Assembly: GCA_902779445.1 (NCBI GenBank)
Contig: CACZBM010000004.1
Coordinates: 1 to 64,000 of the forward strand
Length of the DNA: 64,000 nucleotides
Direction: 5' to 3'
DNA from: an uncultured Lachnospiraceae bacterium
Lineage (GTDB): Bacteria > Bacillota > Clostridia > Lachnospirales > Lachnospiraceae
Shown: piece by piece, positions 30,607-42,068 of the stretch
Position numbering within the stretch: position 1 is the stretch's first letter
Layout: each line of letters begins with the position of its first letter
Notes under the pieces: model-generated
Database searches by the model: none
Told to the model about the DNA's origin: nothing
What the model saw: the letters and a program-made list of their open reading frames with translations, nothing else
Program-made: the position numbers and the translations under genes

Positions 30607-31155
30607 TTACAATACTGTCTTACAGATCTGTTCGTCAGGATGCGCTATCACTGAGGAATCAAGGAACATTCCCTTGTCTGCGATGGATTCCTTTGCAGTC
30701 TCAATAGCAGCGGAAACTGCGGCAACTTCACCTGTCAGGAACATATATGACTTTCCGCACATTCCCTTTGCGATCCGGAGTTCTATAAGATCTACTATAG
30801 CAGTCTTCGCTGCGATATCAGCGGCAACGATCATAGATGCCACATCATAGGTTTCGAGGATCCCCAGTGCACTGATATCATGTACATCTGTGGTTCCGTA
30901 AATAGCCGGGAATATACTCTCGTGAGGGTTACCGAGAACCATACTGTCGATAAGCTCATCCGGGTATTTGGCAGTAGCGGAGTCAACAGCCGCACGCACT
31001 GCACTCAATTCCCCTGCTATGAGGGCGATATATTTTCCGGGACATACTGTTTCTGCTTCCAGTAATTCCACTTTGGAGGTCTTTACCATTTCGTCTGCGG
31101 CAGTAACACCCTTACTCACAGTACTGAATTCTATCATTCCTATGGCTCTGCTCAT
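30607..31155 (-). CDS. pduT: PduT-like BMC-T shell protein with Fe-S ligand Cys38
   Basis: 182 residues with two BMC domains (1-90 and 93-182). Trimers form pseudohexamers in the shell. The segment ETVCPGKYIAL places Cys38 exactly at the [4Fe-4S] ligand of Salmonella PduT, so each trimer should hold one cluster at its pore. It overlaps pduS by one base (TAATG). The pair probably carries electrons across the shell. Confidence 0.93.
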   Translation of the reverse strand: MSRAIGMIEFSTVSKGVTAADEMVKTSKVELLEAETVCPGKYIALIAGELSAVRAAVDSATAKYPDELIDSMVLGNPHESIFPAIYGTTDVHDISALGILETYDVASMIVAADIAAKTAIVDLIELRIAKGMCGKSYMFLTGEVAAVSAAIETAKESIADKGMFLDSSVIAHPDEQICKTVL

Positions 31156-32495
31156 TATTTAAGACCTCCGCTGATGATAACGTATTTATCCGTAACTTCC
31201 ATAACCTTACCGTCTATCGAAGCATGTATGGATACACTCAATGCATTTTCTGCCGCTTCCGCCACGACACTTCCTGCCTTTACCATATCCCCTGCCTTTA
31301 CCACCGCTTTTGCAGGTGCTCCGATATGCTGTGATAACAATATCTTTACCTTTTTTACACTTCTTAAGCTGTCATCAAGGGGCGCATCCTTTTCATACTT
31401 TGATACACCAAGCCTTGCAGCGAGTCTCTTTTCCGGAGCCTTCCTTAAGTCTCTGCCGGAAGATACCTTCGTGATGACAGGATCCTTGGGAGGCTTTACC
31501 CCGTGCTGCCTCAAGCCGTTCTTATATTCCGTGATAAGGGTTCTTGGCTGAAGTCCCTGAGGGCAGGAATATAATTCACAGAGTCCGCAGGATGAACAGA
31601 AAAATGTATCCAGGAAAGGATTAAGATCTGTAAAATCCCTGTTGGATGCTGCTCTCATAAAGAGATGTGGTTTTATCGGATGTCCAAGGGCATGCCTTGG
31701 GCAGAGATCAGTGCACATATGGCACTGGCAGCATATAGAAGCTGCCCTTTTAAGACCTATTGAAGGATCTGTTCTTTTCTTTAATACAAGCTTATGATCT
31801 TCAGGAAGTACAATGATGGCATTTGTGGTTTTTGTGACCGGTGAATCCCCGGACATTTCGCGTCCCATCATAGGTCCGCCCACAAAATAAACCGGATCTT
31901 TTACGGTAAAGCTTCCTGCCATCCGCGCTGTTTCCTCTATGGAAGTACCTATGGGAACCCTTACGGTAACAGGATCCGATACTTCTCCAACAACTGTCAC
32001 CAGCTTCTCTGTGACAGGCCGTCCTGTCTTTATGGCACGGCTCACATTGAACATGGTCTCAACATTGAATACGGCTACACCCTGCTCAATGGGAAGTCCT
32101 CCGGGACGTACCACCTTGCCAGTAGCCTCGTAGATAAGCACCACTTCATCTCCCATGGGATAGGTGGATGAAAGGAGCTTAAGATCTATGGCGGGATATT
32201 CATCAAGATGGGCATTCAGTGCATCAACCGTGCTCTTGTACTCTTCCTTGATACCTATCACTGCGTTAACCGCACCAACGGTTTCCCTAACCATCTCAAA
32301 GGCTTCCAGTATCTCCTCTGCATGAAGGGCGAGGCACTGTCTGTGGAGCATGAGGAGAGGCTCACACTCTGCACAGTTAAGTATTACGGTCTCAGCTCTT
32401 TCATCCAGTTTCCCGTATGTAGGAAAACCGGCACCGCCTGCACCCACTACACCCGCATTACGGAGTATGGTTTTTAACTCGTCGATAGTCATCAT
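31155..32495 (-). CDS. pduS: PduS-like RnfC-domain Fe-S/flavin oxidoreductase
   Basis: 446 residues. The N-terminal RnfC-like NADH/FMN domain has GVVGAGGAGFPTYGKL and NCAECEPLL. Two ferredoxin-type clusters follow: CCQCHMCTDLCP and CSSCGLCELYSCP. A C-terminal lipoyl-like SLBB/barrel domain closes the protein. In B12-dependent Pdu compartments PduS is a cobalamin reductase. Here the dehydratase is a glycyl-radical enzyme, so another redox task such as NAD recycling through PduT is likelier. It overlaps pduN by 4 nt and pduT by 1 nt. Confidence 0.92.
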   Translation of the reverse strand: MMTIDELKTILRNAGVVGAGGAGFPTYGKLDERAETVILNCAECEPLLMLHRQCLALHAEEILEAFEMVRETVGAVNAVIGIKEEYKSTVDALNAHLDEYPAIDLKLLSSTYPMGDEVVLIYEATGKVVRPGGLPIEQGVAVFNVETMFNVSRAIKTGRPVTEKLVTVVGEVSDPVTVRVPIGTSIEETARMAGSFTVKDPVYFVGGPMMGREMSGDSPVTKTTNAIIVLPEDHKLVLKKRTDPSIGLKRAASICCQCHMCTDLCPRHALGHPIKPHLFMRAASNRDFTDLNPFLDTFFCSSCGLCELYSCPQGLQPRTLITEYKNGLRQHGVKPPKDPVITKVSSGRDLRKAPEKRLAARLGVSKYEKDAPLDDSLRSVKKVKILLSQHIGAPAKAVVKAGDMVKAGSVVAEAAENALSVSIHASIDGKVMEVTDKYVIISGGLK

Positions 32496-32758
32496 TCCCT
32501 GCCGGTCCCTTCGTCTATGATACCTACTATAGCGGCATCTACAGGAGCATCATTATTATCGGTACCTATTCTCGCTGCGGAACCTACGGCAACCAGAACA
32601 TATTCGCCAACTCCGGCGCCGATATTGTCTATAGCCACAAGATGGGAAAGACCGTTTCTCATGCTTTCGACAGGCTCAACGATCATGAATTTATTACCTA
32701 TGAGCTTTTCACTTTTTCTGGTGGAAACCACATTTCCCAGTACTTTTCCAACTATCAT
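32492..32758 (-). CDS. pduN: EutN/CcmL-family pentameric shell vertex protein
   Basis: 88 residues. It caps the shell's vertices as a pentamer. The start MIVGKVLGNVVSTRKSEKL and the GAGVGEYVLVAVGSAAR motif are diagnostic. Its end overlaps pduS (ATGA). Confidence 0.95.
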   Translation of the reverse strand: MIVGKVLGNVVSTRKSEKLIGNKFMIVEPVESMRNGLSHLVAIDNIGAGVGEYVLVAVGSAARIGTDNNDAPVDAAIVGIIDEGTGRE

Positions 32759-32778: not shown

Positions 32779-32880
32779 AGCCTTCCCCCTCTGGGGTCGC
32801 TGCTTGCCAGTGGCAAGCGTTCAGCGACGACCGAGTCGGGAGACGAGACCGGTGTCACCGAAGGTGACGGATGAGGGCTT
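32779..32880. repeat. Repeat family B, copy 4 (variant hairpins)
   Basis: CCTTCCCCCTCTGGGG, then CTTGCC-AGT-GGCAAG, CGAC/GTCG arms and GTCACC-GAA-GGTGAC ending in GGATGAGGGCTT. The hairpin arms differ from copies 1 and 2 but co-vary. The pduL stop lies at its end. Confidence 0.8.
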
Positions 32881-33529
32881 ATCTTATGATCCTTACAACA
32901 TCATCCTGCTTGATCCCTGAAGCATTTGCTTCATCAGTATCTATGTGCATCTCCAGTGTAAAGCTGGGATCGACTCTTATAAGCACATTGTCAAATCTCG
33001 TACCTCTGTCGTTATCAGCGACAACCGATACCGTGTCCTTATCCTTAAGTCCTGCCGCATTGGCATCCGCAGGGGACATATGAATGTGCCTTGCAGCTAC
33101 AATACAGCCTTCCTTCAGGTAAAGAGCTCCTTTAGGTCCCACAAGGGCAATGGGAGCACTTCCCTTTACATCCCCGGAATTTCTTAAGGGTGCATTTACA
33201 CCAAGCTTCATTGCATCTGTAGCTGATATCTCCACCTGGTTAAAATTCCTGCAGGGTCCGAGGATCCTGACATTCTCTATTGCTCTTAATTTCAATCCCA
33301 CGATGGTCAGGCGTTCATTTGAAGCGAACTGGCCTCCCATCAGATCTTTCTTTTTAGTAAGGTGATACCCTTCTCCGAAGAGTATCTCCACAGCTTCCTG
33401 TGTTAAATGTATATGTCTTGCCGAAACACCGACAGGTACCATGAAGCCCTGTCCTGATCCCGACGTTTCTTTCTCATTAATGGTATTCAGTATTAATCTG
33501 GTAATTGCTTCGATCTCGGTAGTGTTCAT
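32879..33529 (-). CDS. pduL: PduL phosphate propanoyltransferase with N-terminal encapsulation peptide
   Basis: 216 residues. It converts propionyl-CoA and phosphate to propionyl-phosphate and CoA inside the shell, allowing ATP formation and CoA recycling. Residues 3-20 (TEIEAITRLILNTINE) form the amphipathic targeting helix, linked by a Gly/Ser stretch. The two zinc-binding HIH motifs are SARHIHL and AARHIHM. GGQFASNERLTIVG and GPCRNFNQVEIS are PduL marks. Confidence 0.95.
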   Translation of the reverse strand: MNTTEIEAITRLILNTINEKETSGSGQGFMVPVGVSARHIHLTQEAVEILFGEGYHLTKKKDLMGGQFASNERLTIVGLKLRAIENVRILGPCRNFNQVEISATDAMKLGVNAPLRNSGDVKGSAPIALVGPKGALYLKEGCIVAARHIHMSPADANAAGLKDKDTVSVVADNDRGTRFDNVLIRVDPSFTLEMHIDTDEANASGIKQDDVVRIIR

Positions 33530-33621: not shown

Positions 33622-33900
33622 TTATTTTACCTTCGGAAGGATAAGCTCAACGTCGTTGTGAGGACGAGGAATTACGTGCTGTGCAACGAGCTCTCCAAGT
33701 CTGGATGCGTTGTTTGCTCCAGCCTCAACAGAAGACTTAACAGCTCCTACGTCTCCTCTGACCATAACAGTTACGAGTCCGGAACCGATCTTCTCTGTTC
33801 CTACAAGTGTTACGTTTGCAGCCTTGCACATTGCGTCTGCTGCCTCGATAGCTGCTACAAGACCTCTGGTCTCAACCATTCCTAATGCTTCCTGTGCCAT
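33622..33900 (-). CDS. BMC-H hexameric shell protein (PduA/PduJ type)
   Basis: 92 residues, one BMC domain. [34 protein letters not shown] and [12 protein letters not shown] are canonical. The KIGSG segment lines the central pore, suiting passage of small polar metabolites. It is about 91% identical to the shell protein at 34297-34572, so it is a recent duplicate. Confidence 0.95.
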
Positions 33901-33952
33901 AGTTTTTTCTCCTTTTCTTTAGATGATTGGATATTAAATAGTTACTATTTGG

Positions 33953-34282
33953 TTACACTTCCTGTAAATACTTATCACTTGTATCTTTACCGCCCTTTTC
34001 TTTCCATCTTGAGGCGCTTAAAGTTACCAACTTCACGATCTCCTCATGGGGATTCGCAATTACTCCATGGGAAGCCACATTTCTTATGGGATCTTCCATG
34101 GCGGCCTTTACTGCTGCTTCGCAGTCGGAGACATCTCCCTCAACTATAAGGGTGACCAGTCTTCCTCCGAGCTTTCTTTCCCAGCTCGCGAGCTCCACGC
34201 TTGATGCCTTGCACATCTTATCCAGAGCATCCATGGCAGCCACGACTCCCGTTATTTCAATTAATCCGTATGCCTTTCCCAT
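33953..34282 (-). CDS. Divergent BMC-H shell protein with C-terminal extension
   Basis: 109 residues. The BMC core is clear (GKAYGLIEITGVVAAMDALDKM, VTLIVEGDVSDCEAAV, HGVIANPHEEIV). The pore segment is ERKLGGRL instead of TEKIGSGL, giving extra charge near the pore. A basic tail of about 20 residues (SRWKEKGGKDTSDKY) could bind cargo or be disordered. It lies between the two near-identical BMC-H genes. Confidence 0.9.
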   Translation of the reverse strand: MGKAYGLIEITGVVAAMDALDKMCKASSVELASWERKLGGRLVTLIVEGDVSDCEAAVKAAMEDPIRNVASHGVIANPHEEIVKLVTLSASRWKEKGGKDTSDKYLQEV

Positions 34283-34296
34283 TGATCAAACCTCTC

Positions 34297-34572
34297 TCAA
34301 ACCTTCGGCAGGATCTTCTCAACATCATTGTGAGGACGGGGAATAACGTGCTGTGCAACAAGCTCACCGAGTCTTGATGCGTTGGCAGCTCCTGCCTCAA
34401 CAGAAGCCTTAACAGCTCCTACATCTCCTCTTACCATAACTGTTACGAGTCCGGAACCGATCTTCTCTGTTCCTACAAGCTTTACCTCTGCAGCCTTTGT
34501 CATAGCATCTGCTGCTTCTATGGCTGCTGTGAGTCCTCTGGTTTCAACCATTCCTAATGCTTCCTGTGACAT
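34297..34572 (-). CDS. BMC-H hexameric shell protein, near-duplicate
   Basis: 91 residues, differing from the protein at 33622-33900 at about eight positions, mainly on the outer helix. All pore and edge motifs are the same ([20 protein letters not shown]). Probably one of the main facet proteins. Confidence 0.95.
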
Positions 34573-34605
34573 TTTTTCCTCTTTCCGAAGCCTTCCGCTT
34601 CTTTT

Positions 34606-34923
34606 TTAATTTGTATCAAAACAATTTATCTTTAACATTTTTTCCGTGTCTTCTGTGGGTCTGGGTATTATGTGCTTCTGCACTACGCCTGTCAGTGACT
34701 CGGCCATCTCAACCCCGGCTTCCATTGCCGCATTCACATCTGACACCGATCCCCGGAACTTAACCGTCACCAGGAGTGGTACCGGAAGTTCGTCCGCATT
34801 TGCGGGTTTATTTTTATCGAAGGGTTCCAGCCAGACATTTCCGGCCTTACATCCGGCATCTGCTGCCATAAAGGCCGTTACCAGCCCGAACACTTCCAGG
34901 ATCCCTACTGCCTCTTCCTGCAT
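34606..34923 (-). CDS. BMC-H shell protein with an inserted loop
   Basis: 105 residues. The BMC core is recognised from EAVGILEVFGLVTAFMAADAGCKAGNV, KFRGSVSDVNAAMEAGV and KHIIPRPTEDTEKML. A 15-residue insertion (FDKNKPANADELPVP) replaces the pore-lining turn, so this hexamer should have a different, perhaps occluded or gated, pore. First of four BMC-H genes after the alcohol dehydrogenase. Confidence 0.9.
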   Translation of the reverse strand: MQEEAVGILEVFGLVTAFMAADAGCKAGNVWLEPFDKNKPANADELPVPLLVTVKFRGSVSDVNAAMEAGVEMAESLTGVVQKHIIPRPTEDTEKMLKINCFDTN

Positions 34924-34947: not shown

Positions 34948-36180
34948 TCATTCTGACATTACCGCTATCTTTAAGCCCTTCTGAGCAATATTCGTTTCAA
35001 AGGCTTCATTGATATCCTTAAGCGCAAACTTGTGTGTGATGAGCTTGCTCATGGGGATCCCGTCCCTCTTTGCCGCTTTAAGGAATTCAAATGTTGTAGC
35101 GTAATCTCTTAAAGTGTATACCCAGGAGCCTACCGTTGTGATCTCCTTTGAGCAGATGTCAAAGTGAGGATTTATGGTAGCGTCTCCGCCGTTAATAAAG
35201 AATCCGAGTTCGCAAAGGCCTCCGCCGTTCCTTATGAACTTATACACATTGCTGTGTCCTGCAGGTGAGCCTGTGCACTGGAATGCGAAGTCGGCCAGTT
35301 CTCCACCGAGAGCGTCCTTAACTGCTGCTGCCAGATTCTCAACTCCCTTGTAGTTCATGAAGTTTACGTGGCCTGTAGCTCCCATCTCGTGTGAGAACTC
35401 AAGTCTCTGGTCATTTCCGTCCACGGTCACGATATTGATGATACCCATGGTGCGTAAGATCGCTACGCAGATAAGACCGATAGGTCCGCATCCCTGAACC
35501 ACAACCTTGGAATTGAATTTAAGGATTCCTGTGCTCTTTGCTCTTTCAACCGCATGGATGAGAACTGCGCAGGGCTCGATCAGGATCCTGGAATCCAGAT
35601 CCATATCCGATACGTTGAATATGGTGGATCCGCCCCTTATAAGGATGTAGTCTGAAAACCATCCTGTAAGGTGTCTGTCATCATCAGGGATAAGTCCGTA
35701 TACATCAGCTTCTCCGATGTTCTGCTTATTTAAGTCGAACATTGTGATGGAAGGATCTTCATGGAAGATCATACAGGTCACAACCTTATCTCCAACTCCC
35801 AGAGGCTTTCCTGCCGAATCCTTCTTTACATTTTTTCCGACCTTTACAACCGTACCTGTTCCTTCATGTCCCAGATTGATGGGAATGTACTTGAAGGGAT
35901 CAAACTTGTACTCAGCTGCATCTGTTCCGCATACTCCGGTGCCTTCCACCTTCACGAGGATATCGTCATCTCCGACTTCGGGCATAGGGAATTCCTTTAT
36001 CTCGAAGTGCTTGATATCCGTAAGGAAAGCACAGTGGGCAGTAGCGGGTATATCATACTGTGTGCGGCCTGCTGCGCCGAATCCTGATGCAGAAGGAGTA
36101 GCGGAAGAAACTCCCTTTCCGTCCATGCTGCTAAGCACCTGGCGCACTATCGCCTCAATATCATTTGAATTTACTGCCAT
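34948..36180 (-). CDS. Zinc-dependent alcohol dehydrogenase with N-terminal encapsulation peptide
   Basis: 410 residues, medium-chain dehydrogenase fold. Residues about 4-22 (NSNDIEAIVRQVLSSMDGK) are a targeting helix, followed by a Ser/Ala/Gly linker. The catalytic zinc region is GTGVCGTDAAEYK with GHEGTGTVVKVG. The Rossmann motif is VVQGCGPIGLICVA. It probably reduces propionaldehyde to 1-propanol, regenerating NAD inside the shell. It might also take part in lactaldehyde reduction to 1,2-propanediol, which has no other candidate here. Confidence 0.88.
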   Translation of the reverse strand: MAVNSNDIEAIVRQVLSSMDGKGVSSATPSASGFGAAGRTQYDIPATAHCAFLTDIKHFEIKEFPMPEVGDDDILVKVEGTGVCGTDAAEYKFDPFKYIPINLGHEGTGTVVKVGKNVKKDSAGKPLGVGDKVVTCMIFHEDPSITMFDLNKQNIGEADVYGLIPDDDRHLTGWFSDYILIRGGSTIFNVSDMDLDSRILIEPCAVLIHAVERAKSTGILKFNSKVVVQGCGPIGLICVAILRTMGIINIVTVDGNDQRLEFSHEMGATGHVNFMNYKGVENLAAAVKDALGGELADFAFQCTGSPAGHSNVYKFIRNGGGLCELGFFINGGDATINPHFDICSKEITTVGSWVYTLRDYATTFEFLKAAKRDGIPMSKLITHKFALKDINEAFETNIAQKGLKIAVMSE

Positions 36181-36188
36181 TTTATCTC

Positions 36189-37583
36189 CTATCTGATGCA
36201 GAGGCTGTCAACCATTACGCATCTTCTTCTCTTTGTAAAGCTCGAAGCACTTGTAAGTCCTTCTCCTGTACGGCTCGCTATGGTGAATGTGCAATAGCCT
36301 TCTCCTCCGAAGCCGAGAGCCGAATAACTGGGCCCGTTCTTTACAAGTATCGCGGTATCTATCGCACGTGCATACTTTGTGATATGATCCACATTCTTAC
36401 TGTGGATATGGGCTGAATGCCTGTTGCCGTGTTCAAGCCATACTGCCTTTTCTACTGCATCATCGAAGTCCTTTGCCTTTACGATACCAAGGATCGGCAT
36501 CATGAGCTCCGTACTGATAAGAGGATTCTCTTTCTCTCCGAAGAAAGTGATGCAGCGGATATTGTCCGGTACATCTACGCCTATGTACTTTAAGAGTACC
36601 TTGGCGCTTCTGCCCACACAGTCTCTCATGGGCGAACCCTTTTTATCTATCACTCTTTCGATGAGTGCTTTCTGCTCTTCTTCACTGGCAAGATAGCAGC
36701 CCTGCTCATTTAACATGTAATGCATGAGTTCTTCAGCGACTGACTCCACACATACGATCTCTTTTTCTGCGATGCAGGGAAGATTGTTATCAAATGTGCA
36801 TCCGTTTACTATTGCCTCTGCCGCATGTCTCACATCTGCTGTCTCATCCACAAGAGCGGGAGGATTTCCGGCTCCGGCTCCGATCCCTCTCTTTCCTGAA
36901 GAAAGAACTGCCGTTACCACTCCGGGACCTCCTGTCGCTGCAATGAGTGAGATATCAGGATGCTTCATCATCACATTGCTGGTATCCATTGTGGGTTTCT
37001 CACATGAGCAGGCTATATTGTCAGGTCCTCCTCCTTCAAGTGATGCCTCATTGCAGAGGTTGATCGCAAATATGGAGGTCTTGATAGCCTTGGGATGGGG
37101 GTTAAATACCACCGTATTTCCCGCTGCCAGCATGCCTATTACATTACAAAGTACTGTTTCCGAAGGATTGGTACAAGGAGTTATGGCTCCTATCACGCCG
37201 AAGGGACCCATTTCCGTAAGGGTGAGGCCTCTGTCTCCGCTCCAAGCTTCGGTTCTTATATCTTCTGTTCCGGGACACTTATCCGCTACCAGATGGTGTT
37301 TAAGGATCTTGTCACCCACATTTCCCATTCCGGTCTCGCTTACTCCCATTCTGGCAAGTGTCTCGGCATTTTCTTTAATCTTTCTCCTTATAATGGAGAT
37401 GATCTTTTCTCTCTGGTCAAGGGACATTACGCGGACTGTCTTCTGCGCTTCCTTTGCTGCGGCGATACAGGAATTCATATCCTGGAATACTCCGTGCATC
37501 TTTCCGGTCTCGCCGGATATCTGCATCTTTGCTACAACTTCCTGCACGATGTCCCGAACCATGGTCTCATCAAATGCCATCAT
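36189..37583 (-). CDS. pduP: CoA-acylating propionaldehyde dehydrogenase (PduP-like)
   Basis: 464 residues. It oxidises propionaldehyde with NAD and CoA to propionyl-CoA. An N-terminal encapsulation helix (DETMVRDIVQEVVAKMQ) precedes a short linker. The catalytic Cys lies in TFDNNLPCIAEKE. GPFGVIGAITPCTNPSETV and AGAGNPPALVDETADV are PduP/EutE family marks. It follows the aldolase by 13 nt. Confidence 0.95.
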   Translation of the reverse strand: MMAFDETMVRDIVQEVVAKMQISGETGKMHGVFQDMNSCIAAAKEAQKTVRVMSLDQREKIISIIRRKIKENAETLARMGVSETGMGNVGDKILKHHLVADKCPGTEDIRTEAWSGDRGLTLTEMGPFGVIGAITPCTNPSETVLCNVIGMLAAGNTVVFNPHPKAIKTSIFAINLCNEASLEGGGPDNIACSCEKPTMDTSNVMMKHPDISLIAATGGPGVVTAVLSSGKRGIGAGAGNPPALVDETADVRHAAEAIVNGCTFDNNLPCIAEKEIVCVESVAEELMHYMLNEQGCYLASEEEQKALIERVIDKKGSPMRDCVGRSAKVLLKYIGVDVPDNIRCITFFGEKENPLISTELMMPILGIVKAKDFDDAVEKAVWLEHGNRHSAHIHSKNVDHITKYARAIDTAILVKNGPSYSALGFGGEGYCTFTIASRTGEGLTSASSFTKRRRCVMVDSLCIR

Positions 37584-37596
37584 GCTTCCTTTCCGC

Positions 37597-38409
37597 TTAC
37601 TTACCGAGCTGTTCCATAACCTTTCTGGTGATCTCTGCTACAAGTGCAGGATCTGTGTTAGCTTCGCTTGATCCGGTCTGTGAAACCGATCCGCATCCGT
37701 TTCCGCAGTTGTGGCAGTTCGTGCCGCCCTTATTCTGGCAGAGGTTTGCGGGATGCTTTCCGGGAAGTCCCATCTTTCTTCTGATCTCATAGAGCTTCTC
37801 AACTGTATTCTGATCGAATTCCTTAGGACCGCCGAGCATCCTTGACTTGTAAAGAAGCTCTGCATAGAACTCAAGAGACTCCATCTTGTAGTATGCCTGT
37901 GTCAGGTCTACGCTGTATGAAAGTGCTCCGTGGCTCTCCAAAAGTACTGCGTCAAAGTAAGGAAGATACTCTTCTACAGCATCGGGGATCTCATTTGTGG
38001 AAGGTGTGCCGTATTTTGCTATAGGCACGCATCCAAGAGAGATAACTGCCTCAGGCATTATGGGCTGTGTAAGAGGGATACCTGCAATCGCAAATGATGT
38101 TGCAAATGTGGGATGTGCATGTACAACTGCTCCCACATCAGGTCTCTTCTCATAAACCCTCATGTGCATCTTGATCTCAGATGAAGGACGGTAAGGAGCT
38201 GTAGCCTGGATAACTTCACCCTTTTCATTTACCTTACAGATCATCTCGGGAGTCATAAATCCCTTTGATACACCTGTAGGAGTGCATAAGAACTCATGGT
38301 CATTGAGCTTAACGGAGATATTTCCGTCATTTGCCGCTACCATGTTGCGGTTATAGATTCTCTTTCCGATATCTATTATCTGTTTTTTGATCTCAAACTC
38401 ATTCTGCAT
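37597..38409 (-). CDS. Class II sugar-phosphate aldolase with Cys-rich linker and C-terminal encapsulation peptide
   Basis: 270 residues. The FucA/RhaD-type zinc aldolase core (1-215) has the acidic catalytic residue in PSSEIKMH (Glu78) and zinc ligands His97, His99 (VVHAHP) and His160 (ESHGAL). It should split L-rhamnulose- or L-fuculose-1-phosphate into DHAP and L-lactaldehyde. Residues 222-240 form a linker with four Cys (224, 232, 235, 239). The last 18 residues (DPALVAEITRKVMEQLGK) are an encapsulation helix. A C-terminal targeting helix on the aldolase is a mark of the fucose/rhamnose glycyl-radical compartments (GRM5 type). First gene after the 38513-38541 promoter. Confidence 0.93.
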   Translation of the reverse strand: MQNEFEIKKQIIDIGKRIYNRNMVAANDGNISVKLNDHEFLCTPTGVSKGFMTPEMICKVNEKGEVIQATAPYRPSSEIKMHMRVYEKRPDVGAVVHAHPTFATSFAIAGIPLTQPIMPEAVISLGCVPIAKYGTPSTNEIPDAVEEYLPYFDAVLLESHGALSYSVDLTQAYYKMESLEFYAELLYKSRMLGGPKEFDQNTVEKLYEIRRKMGLPGKHPANLCQNKGGTNCHNCGNGCGSVSQTGSSEANTDPALVAEITRKVMEQLGK

Positions 38410-38601: not shown

Positions 38602-38633
38602 TGTCATCCTGAGGGCTTTGCCCGAAGGATCTC
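38602..38633. repeat. Repeat family A, copy 6 (left half only)
   Basis: GTCATCCTGAGGGC-TTT-GCCCGAAGGATCTCA, half of the hairpin. The activase stop codon TGA is the first part of the repeat's TGAGATCC. Confidence 0.75.
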
Positions 38634-39423
38634 ACCCTCCGATAACGCACTCGATCCCACAGGATTCCACAACCCTTTTCAGCGCAGCCATCTTCTCTGC
38701 CTCAGGCGGTGCCACATTCCCCATAGGATAATCTCTTCCGAGACCCACATATTTATCGTATCCCAGTCTGTGATAGGGGAGGATATGCATTACCTTTACT
38801 CCCGGGAGCTTGGATGCAAACTCTGCTATTCCGCGGATCTCCTCAGGCGTATCATTGAACCCGGGGATCACCGGTGTCCTTATTATCAGTTCAGTCTTTC
38901 CGGATTCAGCCACTTTTCTCGCATTTTCCAGCATAAGTGTATTTTCTTTTCCGGTAAATTCCTTGTGCTTATTGGGATTTGTATGCTTTATATCCATTAA
39001 ATACTGATCGAGATAAGGCAGAACCATTTCTATTTTGTCATAGGAAACTCCTGCCATGCTCTCAAGCGCTGTGGAATATCCCCTGTCCTTCGCAGCTCTG
39101 AACAGATCCCGCGCAAATTCCGGTTGAAGAAGGCTCTCCCCTCCCGAAAGAGTGAGTCCGCCTCCGCTTCTGAAATAATATCTCGAATCCTTGTCCACAG
39201 TCTTCATGACTTCACGGACTGTAATGTCTTCTCCCATTACACGGATCTTTCCGTTAGGCTCTTTCATCTCCTGGATATCGTAAACCTGGGATTCGGGATT
39301 GCAGCACCATCTGCAGCGAAGGATACAGCCTTTCAAAAAGACGATGGTCCGGATGCCCTTTCCGTCATGGACCGAATATCTCTGTATGTCAAAGATCCTT
39401 CCTTTAGTATCTAGATAATCCAT
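38632..39423 (-). CDS. Glycyl-radical enzyme activating protein (radical SAM)
   Basis: 263 residues. It generates the glycyl radical on the dehydratase using SAM and a [4Fe-4S] cluster held by CILRCRWC near residue 33. GGGLTLSGGESLLQPEFARDL and a YLMDIKHTNPNKHKEFTG-type segment follow. The extra eight-cysteine ferredoxin insert found in several activases, such as CutD, is absent, as in pyruvate formate-lyase activase. ATG 39423 is preferred (CTGGAG 5 nt upstream) over GTG 39429. It starts 2 nt after the dehydratase stop. Confidence 0.93.
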   Translation of the reverse strand: MDYLDTKGRIFDIQRYSVHDGKGIRTIVFLKGCILRCRWCCNPESQVYDIQEMKEPNGKIRVMGEDITVREVMKTVDKDSRYYFRSGGGLTLSGGESLLQPEFARDLFRAAKDRGYSTALESMAGVSYDKIEMVLPYLDQYLMDIKHTNPNKHKEFTGKENTLMLENARKVAESGKTELIIRTPVIPGFNDTPEEIRGIAEFASKLPGVKVMHILPYHRLGYDKYVGLGRDYPMGNVAPPEAEKMAALKRVVESCGIECVIGG

Positions 39424-39425
39424 AA

Positions 39426-41957
39426 TCACTCCAGTATCGCAGTCTGTTCTGTACGTCTGATGATATCGTCCTGTAAACTCTTCGAAAGAGTCGTGAACAG
39501 AGCCGAATATCCTGCCACACGGACTACAAGAGCCCTGTACTTATCAGGATTCTTCTGTGCATCTATCAGGGTCTCCCTGTCAATAACGTTAAACTGCATG
39601 TGCATTCCCTTGTTATCAAAGTATGTGCGGATGAGATTTCCGAAATCCGCAAGGCCCTTTTCACCCTGAAGTGCCGAAGGATGGAACTTCTGATTGAGAA
39701 GGGTTCCGTTGGAAGCGATCCCATGGTCTATCCTTGCAACTGAATTTGCTGTAGCAGTAGGTCCGTTCACATCACGTCCTGCCATGGGGCCTATGCCGTC
39801 AGCTACAGGCATATGGGCAAGGCGCCCGTCTGGAGTAGCTCCTGTCTGAGCTCCAAGCGGCACATTGGCGGAAACAGGGTATATCCCTGCCTGGTAAACA
39901 CCGCCCCTCGGATTTTTATACTGACCCAGGGGTTTTGTATACAGATAAGCCGTATCTCTCGCAAAATAGTCAACTTCTTCTATGTCATTGCCATATTTCG
40001 GCAAAGCGTCAATCTCGTCCAATAGTGTTTGAAAACGTTTTCTATCGTCATCAGTCACAGAATTTTGAACATTCTTTACTATTACTGTTATCTCCTGTTC
40101 AGTGAGCTTCTGTCCATTTCTCTCCATCTCTCTTGCAACAGCTGAAGCGATCTTTGAAACGCTCACCTCGTCAAGCCCCTTACCGAAATTCAGGGTCATA
40201 GCTCTTCTGTATTCCTGCAGGGTGATGTAATGCCGGTTATAAACAAGCTCTCTTATGGCATAGAGGGAATCCGCCGCATTGGCGATACCGAAGCACTGCG
40301 GACCGGTAAAGTTGTATATCGCTCCGCCCTGCTCAGTTGTGAGTCCTCTCTTTATACAATCATCTATCATGCATGAAAGCCAGGGAAGAGGCACTCTTTC
40401 CGCATGGGCCTGATCAATGGCGTTGTCGGAATTAACGAGAAGCTCTATCTGGTAATCCATCTGCTTCTTATATGCATCCCAGAAGTCCTCAAAAGTAGTG
40501 AGGCTTTCCAGTTCCCCTGTCTGTATGCTGACTTTTTCTCCGTCTTCATATCCGTTACTGAAAACGAATTCCAGCGGTCTGCACATATTGAAGAATGCAG
40601 CATCATGCCAGCCCATGGTCTTTCCGCCCTTCTGGGGCTCCACGCAGCCGATGATGTCGTAGTCTCTCGCATCTTCTTCACTTATTCCCCTGGACATCAT
40701 TGAAGGGATGATAACTTCATCATTATAGTAAGCAGGCATTCCCATTCCCGTACGGGTCAGGGCTGCAGCCTCTCTCATCACTTCATTCGGTGTCAGATTC
40801 CATACTCTTAAGGAAAGGGATGGAGCAGGAAGATGCACATTATCCTCTGCCCATATACACATAAGAGTGAGGTCATTTGTGGAATCCTTGCCGTCAACTG
40901 TCATTCCGCCTACAGTCAGATTCTGGAAAAGGGAATATCCGGCAAATCCTTTGGCAGATGCTTCATCACGGCATTTATTCAGGTCATTGAACTTAACCCA
41001 TACACAGTCCAGGTATTCCTGTGCCTGGTCACGGGTAATGACTCCGCTTTCTATATCCTTCTTATAATACGGATACATGTACTGGTCGAAACGTCCCGGT
41101 GAAATGGAATGCCCGCTGGACTCCAGCTGCAATAACTGCTGGATGAACCAGAAAGTCTGGCAGGCTTCATAAAAGCTCTTTGCTCCTTTTCTCGGTACAT
41201 TTCTGCAATTCTTTGCTATGTTCTTTAATTCCTCACGCCTCTTCATGTCGGGCTCTTTTGCAGCCATTTCATCTGCGAGAGCAGCATATCTCTCGGCATA
41301 GCGGATAACAGCCTTACAGCTTATTATCATGGCTTCAAGGAGAAAATGCTTCCTCTCATAATCCCCGTCAGTGATCTTACAGGTCTTGAGTTCGTCCTCT
41401 ATCTCTCTTATTTTGCCTTCGAAACCGTTTTCTATAATCTCCCAGTACTTGACTGTGATATGTCCCACTCCGTTATAGAAATAATTACCCGTTGTGAAGA
41501 CATTATGCTTTATAGCCATACGGGTTTCAGGAGTCATGTAATAATCAGCGAGCTCACTCGAAGTCTTACCCTTCCAATAAGGATGCACTTCTCTTAACTT
41601 CTGCTTTGTCTCATTGGAAATATAGAAAGGATCCGCCTCTCTTTTATCTACAGTCTCAAATTCCGGCTCCAGCCAGGAATATGAGAATTCAGGGTATGTC
41701 TGGCATCCCCTGGGCGCAATGGTGGTAGAGCCCACGATCAATTCATTTTTTCTGATTATTATGGGAATATTGTCAAGAATATGCTCGAAAGCATGAGCCC
41801 TTCTCATTACCATAGGCTCATTCTCGGTTTCTTTATAGCTTTCCGTGATAAGGATAGCTCTGGATGCTTCGATCTCCGGCATCTTTTCATACAGATCATG
41901 TATGAGACCGTCGATCCTTGGAGATTTAGCGGTACGTGTTGTATTAAATGAACTCAT
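39426..41957 (-). CDS. Glycyl-radical (S)-1,2-propanediol dehydratase
   Basis: 843 residues, PFL-like fold. It dehydrates 1,2-propanediol to propionaldehyde without B12. Cys438 and Glu440 (IIGCVEP), His166 (GVGHITV), His283 (SSGHSIS) and Asp452 match the catalytic set of B12-independent glycerol dehydratase. The radical Gly816 lies in RVAGYSA. It is about 55 residues longer than the C. butyricum glycerol dehydratase. Much of the extra length is a helical insert near 598-636 that resembles encapsulation peptides. ATG 41957 is chosen for GAGAGGA 5-8 nt upstream; the frame stays open to 42050. Confidence 0.95.
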   Translation of the reverse strand: MSSFNTTRTAKSPRIDGLIHDLYEKMPEIEASRAILITESYKETENEPMVMRRAHAFEHILDNIPIIIRKNELIVGSTTIAPRGCQTYPEFSYSWLEPEFETVDKREADPFYISNETKQKLREVHPYWKGKTSSELADYYMTPETRMAIKHNVFTTGNYFYNGVGHITVKYWEIIENGFEGKIREIEDELKTCKITDGDYERKHFLLEAMIISCKAVIRYAERYAALADEMAAKEPDMKRREELKNIAKNCRNVPRKGAKSFYEACQTFWFIQQLLQLESSGHSISPGRFDQYMYPYYKKDIESGVITRDQAQEYLDCVWVKFNDLNKCRDEASAKGFAGYSLFQNLTVGGMTVDGKDSTNDLTLMCIWAEDNVHLPAPSLSLRVWNLTPNEVMREAAALTRTGMGMPAYYNDEVIIPSMMSRGISEEDARDYDIIGCVEPQKGGKTMGWHDAAFFNMCRPLEFVFSNGYEDGEKVSIQTGELESLTTFEDFWDAYKKQMDYQIELLVNSDNAIDQAHAERVPLPWLSCMIDDCIKRGLTTEQGGAIYNFTGPQCFGIANAADSLYAIRELVYNRHYITLQEYRRAMTLNFGKGLDEVSVSKIASAVAREMERNGQKLTEQEITVIVKNVQNSVTDDDRKRFQTLLDEIDALPKYGNDIEEVDYFARDTAYLYTKPLGQYKNPRGGVYQAGIYPVSANVPLGAQTGATPDGRLAHMPVADGIGPMAGRDVNGPTATANSVARIDHGIASNGTLLNQKFHPSALQGEKGLADFGNLIRTYFDNKGMHMQFNVIDRETLIDAQKNPDKYRALVVRVAGYSALFTTLSKSLQDDIIRRTEQTAILE
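40050..40166 (-). other. Encapsulation-peptide-like helices inside the dehydratase (residues about 598-636)
   Basis: Residues 598-612 (VSVSKIASAVAREM) and 619-634 (EQEITVIVKNVQNSV) are amphipathic. ITVIVKNVQNSV aligns with IEAIVRQVLSSM, the N-terminal targeting helix of the alcohol dehydrogenase in the same operon. This may be an internal shell-targeting signal. Confidence 0.45.
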
Positions 41958-42006: not shown

Positions 42007-42068
42007 GAAAAAAACACCGCAACAACTCCCCGGGGTATCTCATTGATCACTGCATCAGGGTTGTCCGG
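42007..42068 (-). promoter_or_regulatory. Possible attenuator in the dehydratase leader
   Basis: On the minus strand, CCGGACAACCC (about 42058-42068) can pair with GGGGAGTTGTTGCGG, followed by GTGTTTTTTTC. The stem has bulges. Just upstream lie three near-repeats of ACCTGAAGAA (about 42085-42116). The leader is about 177 nt long. Confidence 0.3.

Follow-up and report, generated by a model that had tools for sequence, protein, structure and literature searches.

This locus raises the question of how a dehydratase with no typical targeting peptide at either end of its chain could be recruited into a bacterial microcompartment. The window, i.e., the whole stretch of 64,000 nucleotides analyzed here, encodes a glycyl-radical 1,2-propanediol dehydratase (GRE) together with shell proteins and other enzymes (Table 1), and the first-pass annotation had proposed that this dehydratase carries internal helices resembling encapsulation peptides (EPs). 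The locus is a GRM5-type (fucose/rhamnose) microcompartment in the scheme of PMC6325248. The corresponding gene set was indeed found, comprising the GRE, its activating enzyme (activase), a class II aldolase, an alcohol dehydrogenase (ADH), PduP, PduL, shell proteins of the BMC-H, BMC-T and BMC-P types, and PduS, and a rhamnulokinase adjoins the operon. GRM5 activases were described as lacking a ferredoxin-like insertion (PMC6325248), and that of the window agrees: in a comparison by eye, its 265 residues showed no ferredoxin-like cysteine insertion, unlike the activases of two other loci, L083 and L095 (305 and 332 aa, respectively).

Table 1. Features of the microcompartment operon and of the dehydratase insert (positions in the window), with the targeting helix of locus L095 (positions in that locus).
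Feature	Positions	Strand	Details
Glycyl-radical 1,2-propanediol dehydratase (GRE), PFL-like and Gly_radical domains	39426..41957	-	843 aa; Pfam PF02901 1.2e-238, PF01228 5.5e-36
Whole insert, relative to insert-less glycerol dehydratase	40023..40184	-	about residues 592-645; alignments with 1r8w and homologues
Insert helix 1	40119..40169	-	residues 597-613, strongly amphipathic; AlphaFold2 H597-613, again in isolated peptide
Insert helix 2, EP-like, EITVIVKNVQNSV	40056..40094	-	residues 622-634; AlphaFold2 H620-631; top EP-like segment
Radical-SAM activating enzyme	38632..39429	-	265 aa; NCBIfam TIGR02494 above cut-off
Class II aldolase (fuculose/rhamnulose-phosphate type), C-terminal targeting helix LVAEITRKVMEQLGK	37597..38409	-	PF00596 4.6e-47
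CoA-acylating aldehyde dehydrogenase (PduP-like), N-terminal helix DETMVRDIVQEVVAKM	36189..37583	-	NCBIfam NF011927 7.4e-191; EP segment ranks 2nd
Zinc alcohol dehydrogenase, N-terminal targeting helix DIEAIVRQVLSSM (the one quoted in the first-pass annotation)	34948..36180	-	PF00107/PF08240
Four BMC-H shell protein genes	33622..34923	-	PF00936 in 34606-34923, 34297-34572, 33953-34282, 33622-33900
PduL-type phosphotransacylase, N-terminal targeting helix EIEAITRLILNTI	32879..33529	-	PF06130 1.5e-74
EutN/CcmL-type pentamer shell protein	32492..32758	-	PF03319 1.4e-28
PduS/RnfC-like flavoprotein	31155..32495	-	NCBIfam TIGR01945 2.1e-71, just below cut-off
Tandem-domain BMC-T (PduT-like) shell protein	30607..31155	-	PF00936, two stretches
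L095 classical N-terminal targeting helix MAIDERLIEDTIKEVLRKIQ	L095:6836-6912		genome G640, contig C108

The best PDB match of the dehydratase was the Roseburia inulinivorans diol dehydratase (RiDD, entries 5i2a and 5i2g), over the full length and including the insert stretch. Residues were numbered from MSSFNT, a start supported because the 5i2a alignment begins at residue 1 of that frame; an upstream GTG start at position 42050, adding 31 residues, was ruled out on the same ground. In this numbering, positions 40050-40166 (minus strand) translate into VSVSKIASAVAREMERNGQKLTEQEITVIVKNVQNSVTD, i.e., residues 598-636, which had been described as an insert missing from the soluble glycerol dehydratase. 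The insert is indeed present in 5i2a and absent from 1r8w (glycerol dehydratase of Clostridium butyricum, 787 aa). Its length is about 45-50 residues (roughly 592-644), slightly more than had been claimed, since the query goes from residue 597 to residue 643 with no advance in the 1r8w chain. When the window enzyme was aligned with relatives 41-90% identical to it, the distance between fixed anchors was 76 aa in the window enzyme and 68-103 aa in the 89 insert-bearing sequences, which include the window's own, versus 28-39 aa in ten insert-less sequences. The insert is internal (residues 592-645 of 843), and not at the N- or C-terminus as in a classical encapsulation peptide. GC content across it (0.37-0.46) does not depart from the values seen elsewhere in the dehydratase gene, and base composition revealed no signature of foreign DNA in the insert.

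Resemblance to targeting peptides was evaluated by comparing all 831 segments of 13 residues in the dehydratase with the targeting helices at the chain ends of four other proteins from this operon (N-terminal in PduL, PduP and ADH, C-terminal in the aldolase). The first-pass annotation had likened an internal helix to those of ADH, PduL and PduP, and the ADH helix that it quoted, IEAIVRQVLSSM, is indeed the N-terminus of the ADH encoded in this operon. Residues 622-634 of the dehydratase (EITVIVKNVQNSV) ranked first among the 831 segments, with a score of 66, and the top EP-like segments all lay inside the insert, so that neither end of the chain carries a better targeting candidate, as had been suspected. 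In the aldolase, the C-terminal helix LVAEITRKVMEQLGK (positions 37600-37653) was the top EP-like segment of that protein. For one protein, however, such a resemblance is suggestive only and was not used as proof, because 6.4% of shuffled dehydratases held an equally good segment and the likeness of a single segment is thus not significant; a core segment of the activating enzyme scored 64, versus 66 for dehydratase residues 622-634. By contrast, the test at the family level was strong: the best EP-like segment fell inside the insert in 81 of the 89 insert-bearing sequences, where 7.6% would be expected by length, although these sequences are related and the 81 are not independent cases, which makes this strong but not 81-fold evidence.

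Mean identity to the window's sequence was 21% in the insert, versus 63% for residues 12-590 and 75% for residues 652-838. Such a low identity, together with a variable length, is what a functionless lineage-specific loop would display. That the insert is a loop of this kind is hardly credible, as nine positions (603, 607, 608, 611, 618, 623, 626, 627, and 630) were hydrophobic in 90-100% of 84-89 sequences, spaced as one face per helix, and as, with a single exception, the genomes that retain the insert also have shell genes. The hydrophobic spacing of helix 2 was conserved at 95-100%, and the turn glycine G615 was retained in 78 of the 89 insert-bearing sequences. Within helix 1, the segment starting at residue 599 ranked 7th of 829 by hydrophobic moment. 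The segment scan, conservation and hydrophobic moment indicated that at least one helix has the kind of amphipathicity seen in terminal targeting peptides.

Structure prediction, which had been proposed as a check, pointed to a separate helical hairpin. AlphaFold2, supplied with a 24-sequence alignment, predicted helices at residues 597-613, 620-631, and 636-651, with a block-mean pLDDT of 75-84 over residues 601-650, and identical helices were predicted for the isolated 57-residue insert peptide with no alignment (block-mean pLDDT of 86-91 over the region of the two main helices). The predicted H597-613 and H620-631 match the architecture of an intramolecular encapsulation peptide, in which a short loop connects two helices about 15 residues long. 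A buried insert, which would have spoken against the first-pass annotation, is not what the results indicate: the predicted helices, the tolerance of deletion and the residues missing from solved chains suggest that the insert is exposed rather than part of the core. Deletion of the insert from the Rhodopseudomonas palustris GRM3 dehydratase indeed gave a more soluble, active enzyme which kept activase binding (PMC5311937). PDB entries 9rco, 9rcp, 9rcq, and 9rcr (2025) hold a GRM3-type 1,2-propanediol dehydratase, closely resembling the Rahnella enzyme, without its residues 592-646, probably through an engineered deletion. As these structures were solved without the whole insert, the dehydratase fold does not need it. 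In RiDD, chain 5i2g_B resolves 796 residues versus 836 in 5i2a_A. In sequence, the insert comes after the barrel and ahead of the glycyl-radical domain, and it might regulate or recruit the activating enzyme there, e.g., by controlling how that domain is reached. We regard such a role as very improbable, given that the truncated GRM3 enzyme was still active and bound to its activating enzyme, that insert-less relatives such as L095 keep an adjoining activase, and that insert length (68-103 aa between anchors) and sequence vary freely.

The presence of the insert was associated with that of shell genes when compartment-linked and free relatives were aligned, as the first-pass annotation had advised. 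After exclusion of loci with flanks too short to judge, shell genes were found in 54 of the 58 loci with the insert (54/4), versus 1 of the 10 loci without it (1/9; Fisher p = 1.4e-7). The insert thus occurs in microcompartment-linked enzymes, with few independent contrasts: a tree inferred with the insert columns removed required three changes of the insert and provided only 2-4 such contrasts, too few for the association to be significant in a phylogenetic sign test, which takes common descent into account. In those contrasts where shell linkage differs, the direction is always as expected. Insert-bearing homologues devoid of any microcompartment, which had been named as possible counter-evidence, amounted to one exception (genome G116), as three further loci have shells elsewhere in their genomes. 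In these split loci (L046, from Anaerobium acetethylicum NZ_FMKA01000008, L018, and L045), the dehydratase stands apart from the shell genes, and in L046 so does the activase. In the exception (L083, G116:C9:1-7783), the insert-bearing dehydratase and its activase lie beside a regulator pair and an IS3-like transposase, and a search of G116, scored 100% complete, gave no BMC-domain protein (no PF00936 match). Compartment loss and a misbinned contig are both possible in this genome, because the dehydratase is on a 7.8-kb contig beside that transposase. Among the 50 genomes checked, five had no PF00936 match, namely G116 and four insert-less genomes.

Only one of the ten insert-less loci, L095 (genome G640, contig C108), has its dehydratase in a shell operon, where the neighbors are BMC-H, PduB-like, activase and aldehyde dehydrogenase genes. 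The L095 chain starts with MAIDERLIEDTIKEVLRKIQKNSSSIG, an amphipathic helix plus a linker, and its N-terminus, MAIDERLIEDTIKEVLRKIQKNSS, holds its top EP-like segment, with a score of 82 versus 66 for the window enzyme. On the simplest reading of this sequence, which is one case from a draft genome, a terminal targeting peptide would replace the internal one in L095. A search for further enzymes of this type in the class of G640 gave L095 itself and more distant GREs only, and such an apparent internal-to-terminal relocation is the only part of the present case that we did not find in the literature. The PduB-like shell protein of L095 (L095:5664-5726) starts with MQEELLQKVVEEVKKRMNSGG, a helix resembling the N-terminal helix of the dehydratase from the same operon. 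We lean slightly toward the view that the packaging signal of the propanediol/glycerol dehydratase family is a movable module, present as an internal hairpin in most shell-linked enzymes and as a classical N-terminal helix in at least one, L095, with neither in shell-free relatives. If so, the position of the signal would be interchangeable, and the hairpin would be a true targeting device and not merely an oligomerization loop.

From a mechanistic point of view, the insert is probably an intramolecular encapsulation peptide which gathers the dehydratase into the microcompartment through putative binding partners. The internal EP-like helices claimed from the sequence are upheld by the predicted hairpin, the location of the best EP-like segment and the linkage to shell genes. 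Two amphipathic helices (597-613 and 620-633), with the glycine turn G615 and variable linkers, would project from the dehydratase after the PFL-like barrel and ahead of the glycyl-radical domain. The hydrophobic faces of this hairpin would bind amphipathic helices of adjacent dehydratases, of further cargo proteins or of the inner shell surface, and this binding would draw the dehydratase into the microcompartment as it forms, the activating enzyme following with it. Docking may thus involve the shell, other cargo or the hairpin itself. We found no targeting experiment on a GRM5 insert in the literature. According to PMC5311937, the insert of the RiDD crystal lies in an oligomerization interface unseen in other GRE structures, so that a GRM5 insert may mainly join dehydratase dimers into higher assemblies, with no direct shell-targeting role. 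Conserved hydrophobic helix faces are expected of a self-association module, and RiDD did not precipitate, unlike the GRM3 enzyme (PMC5311937). This explanation nevertheless seems rather unlikely to us, as insert and shell genes tend to occur in the same loci, L095 has a typical terminal targeting helix in place of the insert, and free insert-less relatives manage without it. It overlaps with that of an intramolecular encapsulation peptide, because targeting peptides also drive cargo coalescence.

The internal packaging tag is real but already known. Its prediction for this enzyme family dates from 2015, and a partial test followed in 2017. Zarzycki et al. (2017; PMC5311937) described in the GRM3 dehydratase of R. 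palustris BisB18 a new "intramolecular encapsulation peptide" made of two helices and absent from the C. butyricum glycerol dehydratase. A counterpart in the R. inulinivorans GRM5 enzyme was predicted in a 2015 bioinformatics paper (PMC4644659, as cited through PMC5311937 and PMC6325248), and Ferlez et al. (2019; PMC6325248) reported that all GRM3, GRM4, and GRM5 dehydratases carry an insertion of about 60 residues, a predicted encapsulation peptide. Internal packaging tags would allow enzymes to be loaded into protein organelles with both chain ends untouched, a general claim which is thus published; the present case adds a larger comparative test and one apparent natural replacement of an internal tag by a terminal one.

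Compared with known systems, the window enzyme shares with the R. palustris BisB18 dehydratase its family, an insert built from a short loop and two helices, each about 15 residues long, and the lack of a terminal targeting peptide. The R. palustris enzyme is of the GRM3 type, however, and differs from RiDD in solubility behavior, and GRM3 and GRM5 inserts are not strongly conserved in sequence (PMC5311937). The B12-independent glycerol dehydratase of C. butyricum (1r8w) shares the catalytic fold (VIA-align Z 44.0, rmsd 2.4, 760 residues), but has no insert and, according to PMC5311937, no microcompartment association. The N-terminal EPs of the GRM1 choline TMA-lyase, PduL, PduP, and ADH are amphipathic helices of 13-18 residues with a similar hydrophobic spacing (compared for the PduL, PduP, and ADH of this operon); they stand at a chain end with one linker, whereas the window insert is a predicted hairpin of two helices that is attached to the enzyme on either side. 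RiDD (GRM5) is the direct counterpart, with an equal length, an equal insert position and 58-59% identity over the structural alignment, while its insert sequence, TTAGDIAMQVAKGLKDAGQEVGPDVIANTIRQVL, has diverged from that of the window.
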